This document shows, one piece after another, positions 2,106 to 11,533 of a stretch of 19,619 nt of DNA. A program made the translations under genes and the position numbers. The stretch's first letter is position 1. Each line of letters begins with the position of its first letter. The notes beneath the pieces are model-generated. The model saw nothing but the letters and a program-made list of their open reading frames with translations, made no database searches and was not told the origin of the DNA. This DNA is from Candidatus Freyrarchaeum guaymasense (GTDB taxonomy: Archaea; Asgardarchaeota; Jordarchaeia; Jordarchaeales; Freyrarchaeaceae): contig JAUQZD010000058.1 in NCBI GenBank assembly GCA_030587405.1, positions 1 to 19,619 on the forward strand, given 5' to 3'.

Positions 2106-2144
2106 AATATATTTATCCCCTGACTTTCATAAGTGACTTTAAAA
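2106..2144 (+). promoter_or_regulatory. Candidate TATA boxes of the surface-protein gene
   Basis: Two candidates are visible: AATATATTTA at 2106-2115 and TTTAAAAATA at about 2138-2147. The first would start transcription near 2137 and keep the ribosome site at 2159-2164 in the leader. The second would give a nearly leaderless message starting close to the TTG at 2172. Sequence alone does not decide between them. Confidence 0.4.
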
Positions 2145-2171
2145 ATAGGTTCGTGTGTGGAGGGACTGCTT

Positions 2172-5100
2172 TTGCACGGGAGAGCTTTGCTGGCGGTCCT
2201 TCTGGCAGCCTTTGTGGTGAGTGTGGTCGCCGCTGGTGCTGGCACGGCAGCGGCCAGCCAGCAGCTTCAAGCCCCCGTGTACGCCGTTCAAGACCTGCCC
2301 ATGATGAACGTCACGTGGACGACGCTGAACGGGAGCACCGTTGAAAGCGGGAGCTGGGAGGTTAACGCCTGGGAGTTCGGCCCCGTCCCAGTGCTCAAGG
2401 TGTACGATGCCTCGGGGGGCGAGGTTGGAGCTGGGGCAGGAGGCTACGAAGTCGCAGTCGAGAGAGGTGTGGACTACACCCTCTCCGTCGTGGTCCCGGA
2501 GGAGCTGTTCAGCGAGCTAGGGCTGGATGCCGGCTACATAGGGGTGGAGGTCTTCGGCGGCATTGGGGGAACGAGGGTGCGCGTGAAAGCGGGCTACAAC
2601 TACACTACTGGCACATGGGAGAAGAAGGCTGTCATGATCTACTTTAACGGGACGGAGGCTGAAATCCCGTTCTCCTTCACGGGGACAAGCGAGGATAGGA
2701 GCGGCGGCTTCTACACGGTCAATGTGACCGGCCACTTCACGGACGCCGCCCCGAGGGGTAGCTACTACTGCACCGTCAAGATCTTTGACAGCGATGGGAA
2801 AGAGGTCAAGCTGGGCGCCGTGGGGTGGCTTCCCCATAGCATGTTTAGGACGTTCAGGGTGCTGACGCTTGAGGGGGTCAGCGGCTTCACGGTTCAGCTC
2901 CTGGACAGTAATGGGCAGCTGCTCAAGTACGTTACGAGTGGGGAGGAGTTCCAGATCGTGCTGAACACAACCTCGCCCATAAACTACGCAGTGGTAGGCA
3001 TAGACAAGGGTAACGGGACATGGATAGTGCTGAAGTTCGATCAGGGGAACTTCACCGTCGAGGAGGGCGTCAGGCTCTCGGAGTTCGAGTACATGGTGGC
3101 GCGTGAGGGATCTGACAACTTCACACTGGACGAGGACGCGTGCTCCAGTTCGAACACCAACGTCACGTTCGTGGGCAGCCTCAACCTGGCAGAGGGCAAG
3201 TACAGGTTCACCGTGGTCAACGTCCTGGACGAGTACGGAAACGTCCTGACGTGGCTGAACATGCCGCCGGATCCAAAGATCATAGTCGGTGAACCCTACA
3301 TACGCGTGGAGTCCTACTGGCCTTCGGCGGCTGAGTGGTTGGAGCCGTACGAGCTCCCAGAGCTCCCGGTTGGGACTGGCGACGTGTTCAGCATCCTAGT
3401 GGACATCTACGGAGAGAAAATAGGAGAGGTGGACAAGGTATGCATGAGGCTGGTGCCATTCTCCCTTGAGCTGGTAGAAGGAGAACCTCCAGAATTCTTC
3501 ATCAACCTATTATACAACATCAGTAGTGGAAGCTACGCCGCTGAGGGGTTCTGGGTCACGGGGCCAGGCAGCAACACGCCGATGGACGAGCTGCCGGTTG
3601 AGCTGCTTAGCGTCGCCTCCGCCACCCCTGGAGACCACCTGCATTTGAACTTCACGCTGAAGTTTAACACGTCTAACTCCGACTTCTACGGCCCATACGT
3701 CGTTGTCCCAGGGTTCTTCAAGAACGCGTCCGGCCAACCAGTATGGAACGTGAAGCTTCAGGATCACGCCGATATTATGAGGCTGATCGCCTTCAACACG
3801 CCGACGTTCAACTGGTTCAGCTACTCGGTGGGCGAGGACGGCTCACTCGACCTAGACGATAACCCGCAGACGCCAAACTACTACGTTAGGATGCACAGCA
3901 ACGGGACCATCGAGCTCAAAATCACTTACAACTTGCTCAGGACGGTTATCACGTCCCCTCCAGGGATGACCGTGGTGGCTAGGGTCGGATACATCCACTG
4001 CACCGCTACCTTGAAGTGGAACAGGAGCTACATCTGGACGCACAGTGACGGGACGCCGGTCAGCGACGCCGAAATGCAGCAGATTAACAGCACAATATGG
4101 CTTGACGATAACGTTGAGAAGCTGGGATACATCGGCCTCGGCCACCTGACCATTAACGCCTCCATAGACGACCTGATAAGGAACCCGAAGTACTGGTGGA
4201 TTACCAGTAATGTTCTTGATTGGGCGTGGCTTGCCTTCGACGTGCGTGAGGTATACGCGACCAGCCTGCCGGGAGGCGGCCTGTCCTGGAGCACCGTTGA
4301 GGCTGCGTTCGCCGGCATACTGCTCTACGTGGATCAGGACGCAGACGGAGTCCTGGACATGGGGGTTAGCCCGCTCTTGGGAGCAGCTGACCCGGAGGAG
4401 GCAACCCACGTCTTCTTAATAAGCAACGCGGACAGCGTCAACCTGTCGCTTCCCTTCAATGGTGAGTACGGGGTTAATGGCAGCGTCACGGTTCCCGGCG
4501 GAACCCAAGTTGACTTTGGAGTCGGGCTTACCGGTGTTAACGGAACATTGTTCCCTCTCAAGGTTGGGAATGCTAGGAGGGTGCACAGTGTCTGGCACTT
4601 CATGAGGGAGATCCCCCTCTACATTGACCCCGACGACTTCGATAAGTCGCCCTCTCACGCCGACGTGACGGAGTTGTCACTGGTGGGCCACTTCTACCTG
4701 GAGGCTGGGCAGGACAACTACAGGGGGGTTCTCAAGGTTGACCAGGCGGTGGGAGACTGGAACGTGACGACCGGCGGGAGCGGCGCCCAAGTCGACCTCA
4801 CGAATAGGAGCATGGCGATAGCCTACTATGGAAGGTTCGTCGAGGGGAACTACACCGCCACGTTCATGGCTGAGGGTGTAGGAGCGGTTGACCCTGACAG
4901 CGACTCCATGATGGCAAACAAGTTCAGCTTCAAGGTTGGCAACGCGTCGATAGGAGACTTCCAGATGGGTGGGTCAACGTACACGCTGGACGGTACGCAG
5001 AATTACACGGCGTACTCCTCCACGACCCCGGTTTCAGCGTTCAAGGCGATGTACGTGGCAGAGACGGAGGAGAGTATAGCGAACATAACGATCACAGGTG

Positions 5101-5342
5101 AGACCTACTTCATGGCCTCGTGCTTCCCGGTGTGGGGCGGGGAGGACGTGGACAACGACCCGTCGTACATATCATACATTTCGACAGGGATTTATGAGTC
5201 TAAGCCTCAGAACCTGCTTCCACTGCTATTCCTACTCGTGTTAACGTCGTCTAACCAGGGAAACACCGGCGTGGTGGCGGCGGTAGCCATAGTGGCGGGA
5301 GCTGGAGCAGCAACTCTAATTTACTGGCGGAAGAAGAAGTAA
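2172..5342 (+). CDS. Large secreted, membrane-anchored surface protein (S-layer-like)
   Basis: This encodes about 1056 residues. I chose the TTG at 2172 because GGAGGG (2159-2164) precedes it by seven bases and it places a short basic start directly before a hydrophobic signal sequence (residues about 3-25) ending in an Ala/Ser/Gln-rich cleavage zone. The frame is open upstream to a GTG at 2133, but that start would sit inside a likely TATA box. The ectodomain is beta-rich, with more than 20 Asn-X-Ser/Thr sequons. A calcium-loop-like Asp-Gln-Asp-Ala-Asp-Gly-Val lies near residue 721. The C-terminus has hydrophobic segments from about residue 1014 onward and ends Tyr-Trp-Arg-Lys-Lys-Lys, a typical membrane anchor with a cytoplasmic basic tail. 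Archaeal S-layer and surface glycoproteins share this plan, but I recognise no specific domain family. The gene is monocistronic. Confidence 0.85.
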   Translation: MHGRALLAVLLAAFVVSVVAAGAGTAAASQQLQAPVYAVQDLPMMNVTWTTLNGSTVESGSWEVNAWEFGPVPVLKVYDASGGEVGAGAGGYEVAVERGVDYTLSVVVPEELFSELGLDAGYIGVEVFGGIGGTRVRVKAGYNYTTGTWEKKAVMIYFNGTEAEIPFSFTGTSEDRSGGFYTVNVTGHFTDAAPRGSYYCTVKIFDSDGKEVKLGAVGWLPHSMFRTFRVLTLEGVSGFTVQLLDSNGQLLKYVTSGEEFQIVLNTTSPINYAVVGIDKGNGTWIVLKFDQGNFTVEEGVRLSEFEYMVAREGSDNFTLDEDACSSSNTNVTFVGSLNLAEGKYRFTVVNVLDEYGNVLTWLNMPPDPKIIVGEPYIRVESYWPSAAEWLEPYELPELPVGTGDVFSILVDIYGEKIGEVDKVCMRLVPFSLELVEGEPPEFFINLLYNISSGSYAAEGFWVTGPGSNTPMDELPVELLSVASATPGDHLHLNFTLKFNTSNSDFYGPYVVVPGFFKNASGQPVWNVKLQDHADIMRLIAFNTPTFNWFSYSVGEDGSLDLDDNPQTPNYYVRMHSNGTIELKITYNLLRTVITSPPGMTVVARVGYIHCTATLKWNRSYIWTHSDGTPVSDAEMQQINSTIWLDDNVEKLGYIGLGHLTINASIDDLIRNPKYWWITSNVLDWAWLAFDVREVYATSLPGGGLSWSTVEAAFAGILLYVDQDADGVLDMGVSPLLGAADPEEATHVFLISNADSVNLSLPFNGEYGVNGSVTVPGGTQVDFGVGLTGVNGTLFPLKVGNARRVHSVWHFMREIPLYIDPDDFDKSPSHADVTELSLVGHFYLEAGQDNYRGVLKVDQAVGDWNVTTGGSGAQVDLTNRSMAIAYYGRFVEGNYTATFMAEGVGAVDPDSDSMMANKFSFKVGNASIGDFQMGGSTYTLDGTQNYTAYSSTTPVSAFKAMYVAETEESIANITITGETYFMASCFPVWGGEDVDNDPSYISYISTGIYESKPQNLLPLLFLLVLTSSNQGNTGVVAAVAIVAGAGAATLIYWRKKK

Positions 5343-8816: not shown

Positions 8817-9215
8817 TCATATTTGGACTGAAGTGTACTTGACCTGTTGCACTCCCTTTATCGCCCTCACTCTGCCTATTAGCTTGTATATTTCTTCGAG
8901 CTCTCCCTCAGCAACCAGTATTTCGAGGCAATACGTTCTTGCCAGGTGCATGTGCATGTTTCCTGTTACTATTTCGTCGTACTCGTGGCGTAGCCTTGCA
9001 AGCTGCTCGTCGACCTCCCTTCTCTCATACTCCCACATTATTATTATCGCTGAGATCACCTTTCCTCTCTCAGCTCTTCTTATCTCATACTCGGAGAGGA
9101 AGTTTCTGACGGCGTCCCTTATAGCCTCGGACCTGCTAGAGTAGCCCCTTTCCGCTATGAACTGGTCGAGCCTTTTGAGAAGGATCGGGTCTAGGGAGAC
9201 GCTTATCACGGTCAA
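8817..9215 (-). CDS. nikR: Nickel-responsive transcriptional regulator, NikR type
   Basis: The protein has 132 residues, against 133 in E. coli NikR. Residues 1-45 form a ribbon-helix-helix DNA-binding domain (Ile-Ser-Val-Ser-Leu strand, then Ser-Ser-Arg-Ser-Glu-Ala-Ile-Arg-Asp). Residues 50-132 form the ACT-like metal-binding tetramerisation domain. His77, His88, His90 and Cys96 line up with the E. coli high-affinity nickel ligands His76, His87, His89 and Cys95, in the context Met-His-Met-His-Leu and Tyr-Cys-Leu-Glu-Ile. I chose the TTG at 9215 because GGTGA precedes it by five bases and it gives the family length. An ATG at 9233 would add six residues. It is divergent from the metal ATPase pseudogene and probably controls or once controlled it. 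In this family nickel binding enables operator binding and repression. Confidence 0.9.
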   Translation of the reverse strand: MTVISVSLDPILLKRLDQFIAERGYSSRSEAIRDAVRNFLSEYEIRRAERGKVISAIIIMWEYERREVDEQLARLRHEYDEIVTGNMHMHLARTYCLEILVAEGELEEIYKLIGRVRAIKGVQQVKYTSVQI

Positions 9216-9245
9216 CCAGATCACCATCCACATGTTTGATAAAAG

Positions 9246-9316
9246 AATTTATTAACATTTAATAATTTCCCCCCATTGCTTAGCATTAAATTAATAACAT
9301 TTCCCCCTCATGCTTA
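9246..9316. repeat. Imperfect direct repeat in the nikR / metal-ATPase divergent promoter
   Basis: Copy 1 (9246-9282) and copy 2 (9288-9316) share, in order, an AT-rich block (TATTAACATTT versus TAATAACATTT), a run of five or six C, and (AT)TGCTTA. Copy 1 carries eight extra bases before the C-run. Copy 2 overlaps the ATG of the ATPase gene at 9310. The region should also contain both divergent promoters. The repeat may be an operator pair or simply a small tandem duplication. Confidence 0.6.
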
Positions 9317-11533
9317 CGTGGGTGTGCCGCTTGCACCTGCTTGAAGCCGAGTGCCCCGTTTGCAGGGTTGAATTGGAGGAAGCAGGAGAGGAGAAGCATT
9401 TAGGTAGGCAGGTAGCTATCATAGCCGTCTCCGCCGTCCTGATGGGGGCAGGGTTCCTGCTTGAACACTATTATGCCAACTCGTACATTCTCCTTCCCCA
9501 GCGAGTCTACCTTCAACTGCTAGAGTACTTATCGTCAACCCTTTCCCTTCCGGCGCTTGCCCCCTGGGAGCCTTTAATGGTGAAGTTGCCCTTCGCGGCG
9601 GCAGCAGCCACTTCAGGCTGCCAGATCGTCGTGGCGGGTGTCAGGGATCTGGTTAAGGGGAGGCGTGTCACGATTAACCTTCTCGTCACCGTCGCCATAG
9701 TTGGGGCTTTCGCCATAGGACACCTTGAGGAGGGTGCATCCGTAGCAATACTCTTCATGCTGGTTGAACTGCTGGAGGAGTACGCTGAGGGGCGCGTTAA
9801 AGGCTCTGTTAAGAAGCTTATGGAGGCCGCCCCCGACGTTGTAACGGTGCTAAGGGACGGTGAGCAAGTGCTCATGCACGCTCACAGTGTAGGCGTTGGG
9901 GAGGTGATCTTGGTTAAGCCTGGAGAGAAGATCCCTCTGGATGGGGTGGTTGTTGAAGGCGAGACAAGCGTCGACCAGTCATCGATAACCGGCGAGTCCG
10001 TCCCGGTCAGGAAGGCTGTTAGCGACGAGGTCTACGCCGGGACAATGAACAATGAGGGCTACATTAAGGTTAAGGTGACGAAGCCTGCCAGCGAAACCCT
10101 ATACTCGAAAATAGTGAAGATCATCGAGGAAGCAGAGAAGAGGAGGGCTCCAACTGAAAGGTTCGTTAACAAGTTTTCCCGCTACTACACCCCACTCGTA
10201 ATCCTCACAGCCTTCCTAGTGGCAGCGGTCCCCCCGCTGGTGCTTGGCCATCCGTTAACGCCGTGGATTTACAGGGCGCTCATCCTCCTAGTCGTATCTT
10301 GCCCGTGCGCCCTAGCCATATCAACCCCCGTAACGATGGTTTCATCCATCACCGGGGCTGCAAGGGAAGGCGTACTGGTTAAAGGCGGAGCCTACGTTGA
10401 GACCTTATCCCGGATTAAGGCTTTCGCCTTCGACAAAACTGGAACGTTAACGGAGGAAAGGCTGAAGGTGTCCAGGGTCATCCCGTTAAACTCCGACGGC
10501 AACCTAGAAGATGTTTTAAGGGTTGCAGCCTCCCTCGAGTTCTTCTCGGAGCACCCGATAGCCAAAGCGGTGGTGGAGGAGGCTTCCCGGCTCGGGGTCA
10601 CCCTCGGAAAGGTCGAGGAATTCACGGTCATCCCGGGTAAGGGTGTCGCGGGGAAGGTTGACGGTGTACGTTACCTTGTAGGCAACAGGAAGCTCTTCGA
10701 GGGGGTGACCATCCCAAGCATTGACGGCGGAACCATGGTGTTCGTCGGGTCAGACAGCACCCTAATGGGCGTAATAGTTCTCGAGGACACCATTAAGGAT
10801 GACGCATACTACCGTGTTACGGAGCTTAAGAGAAGGGGAATGAAGGCCGTTATAATGAGTGGTGACAACGAGAAAGCTGTTAGAACCGTGGCTAAAGAGC
10901 TCGGAGTCGACGAGTACTACGCCTTGCGAAACAGTTAAATATTTGGTAGGTGTTTGTGGGTGCTGGTCTGGCCACAGGGTGGCCTATGGGTGGAGTCTTC
11001 GGATGTGGGGCTCCGGGATTACCCCGAAAGCCCAAACAGAGGCGCACGCCTCGATGACGGGGAAACGCCTGATAGACCAAAACCGTTTACCCATAAAAAC
11101 CCTATCAAGCGTGAACCCCGACTTGCTACCCCACGAGAAGGTTAGGGTAGTAGAGGGGTTAGATGGGAAATATGGTGTTGTGATGGTTGGCGACGGGGTG
11201 AACGATGCTCCAAGCCTCGCAAGGGCGTCCGCCGGGATAGCGATGGGGGCGATGGGGAGCGACGTTGCACTCGAGACAGCCAGCATAGCGCTGATGGAAG
11301 ATAGGCTCTCAAAGATAGTTTACCTGTTAGATTTAAGCAGGAAGACGATGAGGGTGGTGAAGGAGAACGTCGCCGCGTCGATTATTATAAAGCTGGCTCT
11401 CGTAGCGTTAACCATCATAGGGCTAACAACACTCTAGATAGCCATAGGTGTAGGAGACCTAGGGTTAAGCCTGGCGGTGGTGGCTAACGCGCTGACAGTA
11501 CCTGTAAGGGCGGGTGCACACTACCCCGGCTAG
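9310..11533 (+). pseudogene. P1B-type heavy-metal-transporting ATPase, disrupted
   Basis: The reconstructed protein of about 675 residues is a P1B metal-efflux ATPase. It has an N-terminal Cys6/His9/Cys15/Cys18 cluster, hydrophobic helices, Thr-Gly-Glu-Ser near 227, the transmembrane Cys-Pro-Cys near 331, Asp-Lys-Thr-Gly-Thr (phosphorylated Asp) near 374, Ser-Glu-His-Pro near 414, and then Gly-Asp-Gly-Val-Asn-Asp-Ala-Pro at 11188. A Lys in helix 7 and Gly-Asp-Leu-Gly in helix 8 resemble the zinc/cadmium (P1B-2) group. The gene is broken twice. About 196-199 foreign bases after Tyr-Tyr-Ala (from about 10923) introduce a TAA at 10936 and shift the frame. Further on, a Trp codon is TAG at 11435-11437, cutting off helix 8 with its Asp, although 31 sensible codons follow. 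The rest is well preserved, so the loss is recent. Neighbouring nikR suggests a link to nickel. Confidence 0.85.
10924..11119 (+). other. Foreign insert with a predicted multi-arm RNA fold inside the ATPase gene
   Basis: The flanking frames and the family pattern Tyr-Tyr-Ala-X-Leu-Leu-Pro place the insert between about 10923 and 11120. Its ends form a long helix: 10943-10962 pairs with 11088-11108 (about 19 pairs, three of them G-T, with one mismatch and one bulged base). Next come 10964-10969 with 11074-11079 (perfect), a hairpin at 10970-10984 (GGCCAC/GTGGCC), a two-part hairpin at 11008-11033 (GGGCT/AGCCC outside CGGG/CCCG) and a hairpin at 11039-11052 (GAGGC/GCCTC). A small stem with a TTCG loop is possible at 10995-11004. 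AGTTAAATATTT just before the helix could serve as a TATA box. It carries no gene. It may be a miniature inverted-repeat element, a mobile structured RNA, or both. Confidence 0.6.

Follow-up and report, generated by a model that had tools for sequence, protein, structure and literature searches.

The locus lies in a stretch of 19,619 nucleotides (hereafter the window), where a heavy-metal P-type ATPase gene on the plus strand is interrupted by a structured insert. The 5' open frame of the gene (9310-10938, +) runs into the insert and terminates at a stop codon at 10936-10938. The ATPase homologue search scored 7,999 proteins, and among the best 120 of these, the closest ATPase was P0002 (669 aa; 68% identity), followed by P0003-P0006 (58-62% identity). 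P0003 and P0006 carry the name Candidatus Jordarchaeales, an Asgard group. The 16 ATPase loci found in the genome-collection scan were all titled as bacteria, and a search of viral contigs with a related protein, P0122 (see below), yielded 18 ATPase loci. A NikR-type regulator (RHH_1 and NikR_C) is encoded divergently from the ATPase gene at 8817-9233 on the minus strand, and this neighbor suggests that the ATPase is a nickel-linked metal exporter. Elsewhere in the window, a 1069-aa open frame (2133-5342, +) with no Pfam match bears a C-terminal hydrophobic stretch and a basic end, resembling the anchor of a surface protein. The features of the interrupted gene are as follows.

9310..10923, +, heavy-metal P-type ATPase gene, 5' part (Pfam E1-E2_ATPase and Hydrolase; 68% identity to P0002)
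10924..11119, +, insert of 196 nt, excision of which restores frame and spacing (limits ambiguous by 2 nt)
10934..10943, +, GTTAAATATT, TATA-box-like stretch before the folded domain
10943..10962, +, closing helix, 5' arm, in the minimum-energy fold (ordinary strength on its own)
10964..10969, +, perfect 6-pair helix, 5' arm, in the minimum-energy fold (partner 11074-11079)
10970..10984, +, hairpin 1, GGCCAC/GTGGCC, in the minimum-energy fold
11008..11033, +, hairpin 2, GGGCT/AGCCC with an inner 4-pair stem, in the minimum-energy fold
11039..11052, +, hairpin 3, GAGGC/GCCTC, in the minimum-energy fold
11074..11079, +, perfect 6-pair helix, 3' arm, in the minimum-energy fold
11088..11108, +, closing helix, 3' arm, in the minimum-energy fold
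11120..11533, +, ATPase gene, 3' part, a single frame ending with the TAG at 11531-11533 and broken by one internal TAG
11435..11437, +, internal TAG (Trp in P0122 and P0002-P0005)

The limits of the insert were examined through the spacing between the SGDN and GDGVND motifs, which are 331 nt apart in the window. Subtraction of 196 nt leaves exactly 45 codons, the spacing also found in P0002-P0006, the five closest ATPases, and this spacing is fitted by 196 nt, not by 199 nt. Among the 119 listed homologues, the spacing was 45 in 5, 46 in 100, and 47 in 10, and could not be measured in the remaining 4. P0002-P0005 are continuous across the site (EYYA-E/G-LLPH-E/D-K); in the window, EYYA is followed by the 196 nt and then by D-LLPHEK in a different frame. 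The dinucleotide CC at both junctions leaves the position of the insert ambiguous by 2 nt, and the limits given in the original prediction (10924 and 11119) are correct within that margin. No target-site duplication beyond chance was found at the junctions: the best 7-mer direct repeat matched at 6 of 7 positions, which was equalled by 18% of 2000 shuffles, while a duplication of the 2-nt CC is possible. A duplication of TTGC was ruled out, as it would leave 44 residues.

The search with the open plus-strand frame of the insert scored 3 candidates, and P0122, a protein of 175 aa from a 1279-nt metagenome contig, was the sole protein found. The first 39 codons of P0122 correspond to the end of the insert with 3 differences and are followed by the ATPase through to its C-terminal end, the junction between the two being the same as that in the window. 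As P0122 possesses the end of the insert at the same junction, an assembly artefact can be ruled out, and the insert is not confined to a single strain. The proposal that a structured insert interrupts a metal ATPase gene is thus borne out by the exact 196-nt excess and the shared junction, and P0122 contradicts the absence of homologues that had been named as an outcome against it. The insert combined with the ATPase part as the query gave 258 scored candidates (158 at E <= 0.001), of which the best 120 were examined. Among 241 collected proteins, the insert was present in P0122 only, beyond the window itself, and blastp of the translated insert against the same proteins recovered P0122, the best other match having an E-value of 5.1.

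Three further proteins, P0197, P0198, and P0226, cover no more of the ATPase than its final ~92 residues. P0197 and P0198 (102 aa) align with the C-terminal ~92 residues of P0122 and have an unrelated N-terminal reading, which would fit a small upstream deletion, and P0226 (92 aa) starts near the same point and bears unusual changes. Judging from the protein ends, the three are probably broken genes in sister strains. The altered upstream reading in P0197 and P0198 suggests independent decay of the gene. In the window, the TAG at 11435-11437 is treated as either a second lesion or a sequencing error. A reading of this codon as pyrrolysine was rejected, since P0122 has Trp at this position and PMC9723677 reports pyrrolysine recoding among Asgards only in Sifarchaeia.

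Fold strength was assessed by comparing the minimum-energy structure with dinucleotide shuffles (200 per test). The same plus-strand fold was obtained from the insert alone, from the insert in 276 nt of context, and from the domain 10941-11108. The z-score was -2.28 for the whole insert (4 of 200 shuffles were equally good), -3.00 in the 276-nt context (0 of 200), and -3.19 for the domain (0 of 200), the limits of which were picked after the fold was seen. The minus strand folds fairly well too (z of -1.84 for the insert and -2.42 in the second test). When 398 same-length combinations of stretch and strand from the window were given 40 shuffles apiece, 20 had a z at or below -2.28; the z of the insert itself on this 40-shuffle scale was -2.96, and 7 of the 398 combinations were lower. 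Altogether, the fold appears to beat shuffled sequence to a moderate degree, and the outcome "no better than shuffled" was not obtained (z of -2.28 to -3.19). The lowest folding z in the window (-5.2, 40 shuffles), below that of the insert, belongs to 11173-11368 (+), a stretch of ATPase coding sequence that follows closely after the insert.

The internal arrangement of the fold agrees largely with that predicted originally. The closing helix of about 19 positions was reproduced exactly by the minimum-energy structure, with 19 pairs formed by 10943-10950 and 10952-10962 with 11088-11095 and 11098-11108. The inner perfect 6-pair helix (10964-10969 with 11074-11079) and all of the three strong interior hairpins were also recovered, although the possible TTCG-loop hairpin is absent from the minimum-energy structure. 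The end-to-end pairing taken alone is ordinary, as pairing of this strength was seen in 14.9% of 2000 shuffles and in 304 of 2775 stretches of the window, and the closing helix was dropped as stand-alone evidence on these grounds. An element preceding the fold had been predicted as well, and a TATA-box-like stretch is indeed located there, but such matches are common: the TATA-like 8-mer with at most one mismatch occurs 54 times in the window.

The claim that the insert has no coding capacity stands in part. One plus-strand frame (10859-11437) crosses the insert and continues into the ATPase without interruption, and this frame stays open in 4.75% of mononucleotide shuffles of the insert. On the other hand, no protein family in Pfam, PHROGs, or NCBIfam matched the tested insert frames, and such open frames are common in the window, where on average about one of the six frames is open in a 196-nt stretch.

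The suggestion of a mobile or self-standing structured RNA is partly supported: the structured insert is shared with P0122 at the same site, but searches of the window, of plasmids and phages, and of viral contigs by pattern detected no additional copy. The absence of further copies, an outcome named against the suggestion, applies to these collections. The insert searched by blastn gave one 41-nt match (E of 0.3) in plasmids and none in phages, and its open frame searched by tblastn gave five plasmid matches at E-values of 2-10 and none in phages. In viral contigs, back-translated patterns of the insert hit 17 stretches, 0 of which were confirmed, and two DNA patterns gave 0 and 1 matches, the single match (L051) aligning over 20 nt only; blastn against the loci L001-L051 gave a best E-value of 0.22. 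A covariance-model search matched no Rfam family to the insert at the gathering score, and at E <= 5 only SNORD94 was found, outside the insert. No known self-splicing intron class in Rfam was matched. A strict scan for bulge-helix-bulge motifs detected 1 weak candidate near the junctions, compared with a mean of 1.13 at 300 random places, and scans for tRNAs, sigma-70 promoters, and terminators found none.

The window and P0122 were compared for selection after the insertion. Downstream of the insert, 13 of the 131 compared codons differ, the TAG not counted. The mean BLOSUM62 score of the 13 changes was 0.85, against -0.34, -0.24, and -0.17 for simulated random single-base changes (P of 0.003, 0.011, and 0.018 for three transition weights). 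The changes are thus more conservative than the simulated ones, and the quartile of columns with the highest conservation held none of the 13 differences (P of 0.019). Other measures were weaker or pointed the other way: 3 of 52 near-invariant columns were changed, and the mean column entropy without the variable tail gave a P of 0.058. A P of 5e-5 for the entropy including the tail was discarded, since the variable C-terminal tail accounts for it. Also among the weaker or contrary measures, residues rare at conserved positions number 6 in the window and 6 in P0122, the highest count for the 119 listed homologues (mean of 1.05), although the intact close relatives P0002-P0005 have 3-6. The 3 differences within the insert are not conservative as protein (P of about 0.6), and all of them are at unpaired positions of the fold (P of about 0.03, in a test conceived afterwards). 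On balance, these results, from one sequence pair with 13 differences, weigh against outright inactivation of the gene ahead of the lineage split; they would also be explained by late death of the gene or by recombination that spread the insert afterwards.

The ATPase gene possesses a precise insertion at a site shared with P0122 and a further stop codon. For these observations, we propose a small, non-autonomous structured insertion into an ATPase gene that is now dead here, with its TAG at 11435, and seemingly disrupted in sister strains, an explanation that we hold to have about an even chance of being correct. An insertion of ~196 bp, with the capacity to form a closed and branched structure as RNA or single-stranded DNA, would have entered the ATPase gene before the lineages of the window and P0122 split, leaving no clear target duplication at the site. 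The broken frame would have disabled the pump or put it on the way to loss, and the TAG in the window and the broken upstream frames in sister strains would have been later lesions. Against this order of events, the protein-conserving differences between the window and P0122 would not be expected had the gene already been inactivated by the insert when the lineages separated. Mobility of the insert is likewise presumed, despite neither a link to a transposase nor a second genomic copy in the collections searched, and no terminal inverted repeat reaches the junctions. If true, a plain insertion would contribute one small element of no known class to a lineage with kinship to the Asgard archaea, and would record how a metal pump beside a NikR-type regulator decays.

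The absence of a target duplication would also suit a copied or captured non-coding RNA gene of the host, itself non-mobile, that was pasted in with its TATA-like element during DNA repair. The TATA-like stretch ahead of the folded domain and the compact closed fold are consistent with such a capture; nevertheless, we regard it as doubtful, considering the 54 TATA-like matches in the window and the lack of a known RNA family in Rfam. The selection results bear more on a different possibility, in which the insert is an intron-like RNA that is cut from the mRNA or bypassed, the ATPase stayed functional, and the copy in the window died later by the TAG. Excision restores the exact frame, the downstream differences conserve the protein though both lineages carry the insert (P of 0.058 for the entropy without the tail), and the 3 insert differences, non-conservative as protein, are all unpaired (a post hoc result). 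The bulge-helix-bulge signal is at background (1 weak candidate versus 1.13), however, the Rfam search leaves no known self-splicing class, the sister strains look broken, and the signal, drawn from a single pair of sequences with 13 differences, would be mimicked if recombination had spread the insert. Thus, an intron-like or tolerated insert is less likely a priori, yet the selection test leans to it, and we consider it unlikely overall. Its particular version, a compact structured RNA absent from Rfam that acts as a removable intron-like element, with the fold kept, both halves of the gene evolving as protein, and later death in some strains, seems quite unlikely. Were the insert excised at the RNA level, it would represent a type of archaeal intron that lacks the customary splicing-endonuclease motif.

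Two readings retain a coding role around the insert. The gene may have been split into two cooperating proteins, with the insert as intergenic space aiding the start of translation of the second half: the upstream half ends soon past the junction, P0122 was called as a protein that begins within the insert and extends to the normal ATPase end, and the downstream half looks constrained. The split point inside the phosphorylation domain and the internal stop in the second half in the window make this very unlikely. Translation of the insert as an extra protein loop, via a frameshift near 10936, is hardly credible, even though one frame crosses the whole insert in the window, stays open for at least 39 codons in P0122, and remains open in 4.75% of the mononucleotide shuffles of the insert; the peptide matches no family, its 3 changes are not conservative, and the window has many open frames as long as this one.

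Among known systems, the insert resembles miniature inverted-repeat elements (MITEs), which are derived from DDE transposases, in being short, non-coding, paired near both ends, and located inside a gene. On the other hand, its pairing is of ordinary strength and stops 19 nt and 11 nt before the junctions, so the arms (10943-10962 and 11088-11108) lie inside 10924 and 11119 and make no terminal inverted repeats, and no target-site duplication is evident. Archaeal bulge-helix-bulge introns in pre-mRNA (Cbf5 type) likewise interrupt a protein gene precisely and restore the frame on excision, but the bulge-helix-bulge of the insert is not above background.

The IS200/IS605 family is not known to make a target duplication, a trait that the insert appears to share, albeit a weak one common to other processes. 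The translated insert seems reminiscent of a TnpB segment made up of the second zinc knuckle and a tail behind it. The pattern MWGxG[IV]TPK was found in 0 viral contigs, N[IL]xLRMWG hit 16 stretches, none of which was TnpB by eye, and the tail of the insert gave one plasmid match (E of 3). The knuckle-plus-tail query retrieved 146 plasmid and 126 phage records at E-values up to 10, and many, not all, of the 30 best matches per set were annotated as transposase or TnpB. PF07282 was detected in 0 of the 12 bacterial genomes reached through ATPase loci, a search that concerns bacterial, not archaeal, TnpBs. No homology of the insert to a tnpB 3' end or an omega-RNA was found in Rfam, Pfam, PHROGs, or NCBIfam, nor any homologue supporting an IS200/IS605 origin in the collections searched. 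According to PMC12558985, haloarchaeal sotRNA transcripts overlap tnpB (Rfam RF02656 and RF02657). The insert differs from such right-end omega-RNAs in having neither an Rfam match nor, when translated, a tnpB match, and in adjoining no tnpA or tnpB, but it resembles them, as described there, as a structured RNA of similar size, which in their case is linked to a mobile element. By analogy, the likeliest source of the insert would be an end fragment of an IS200/IS605-like element, with a structured RNA overlapping its right end.
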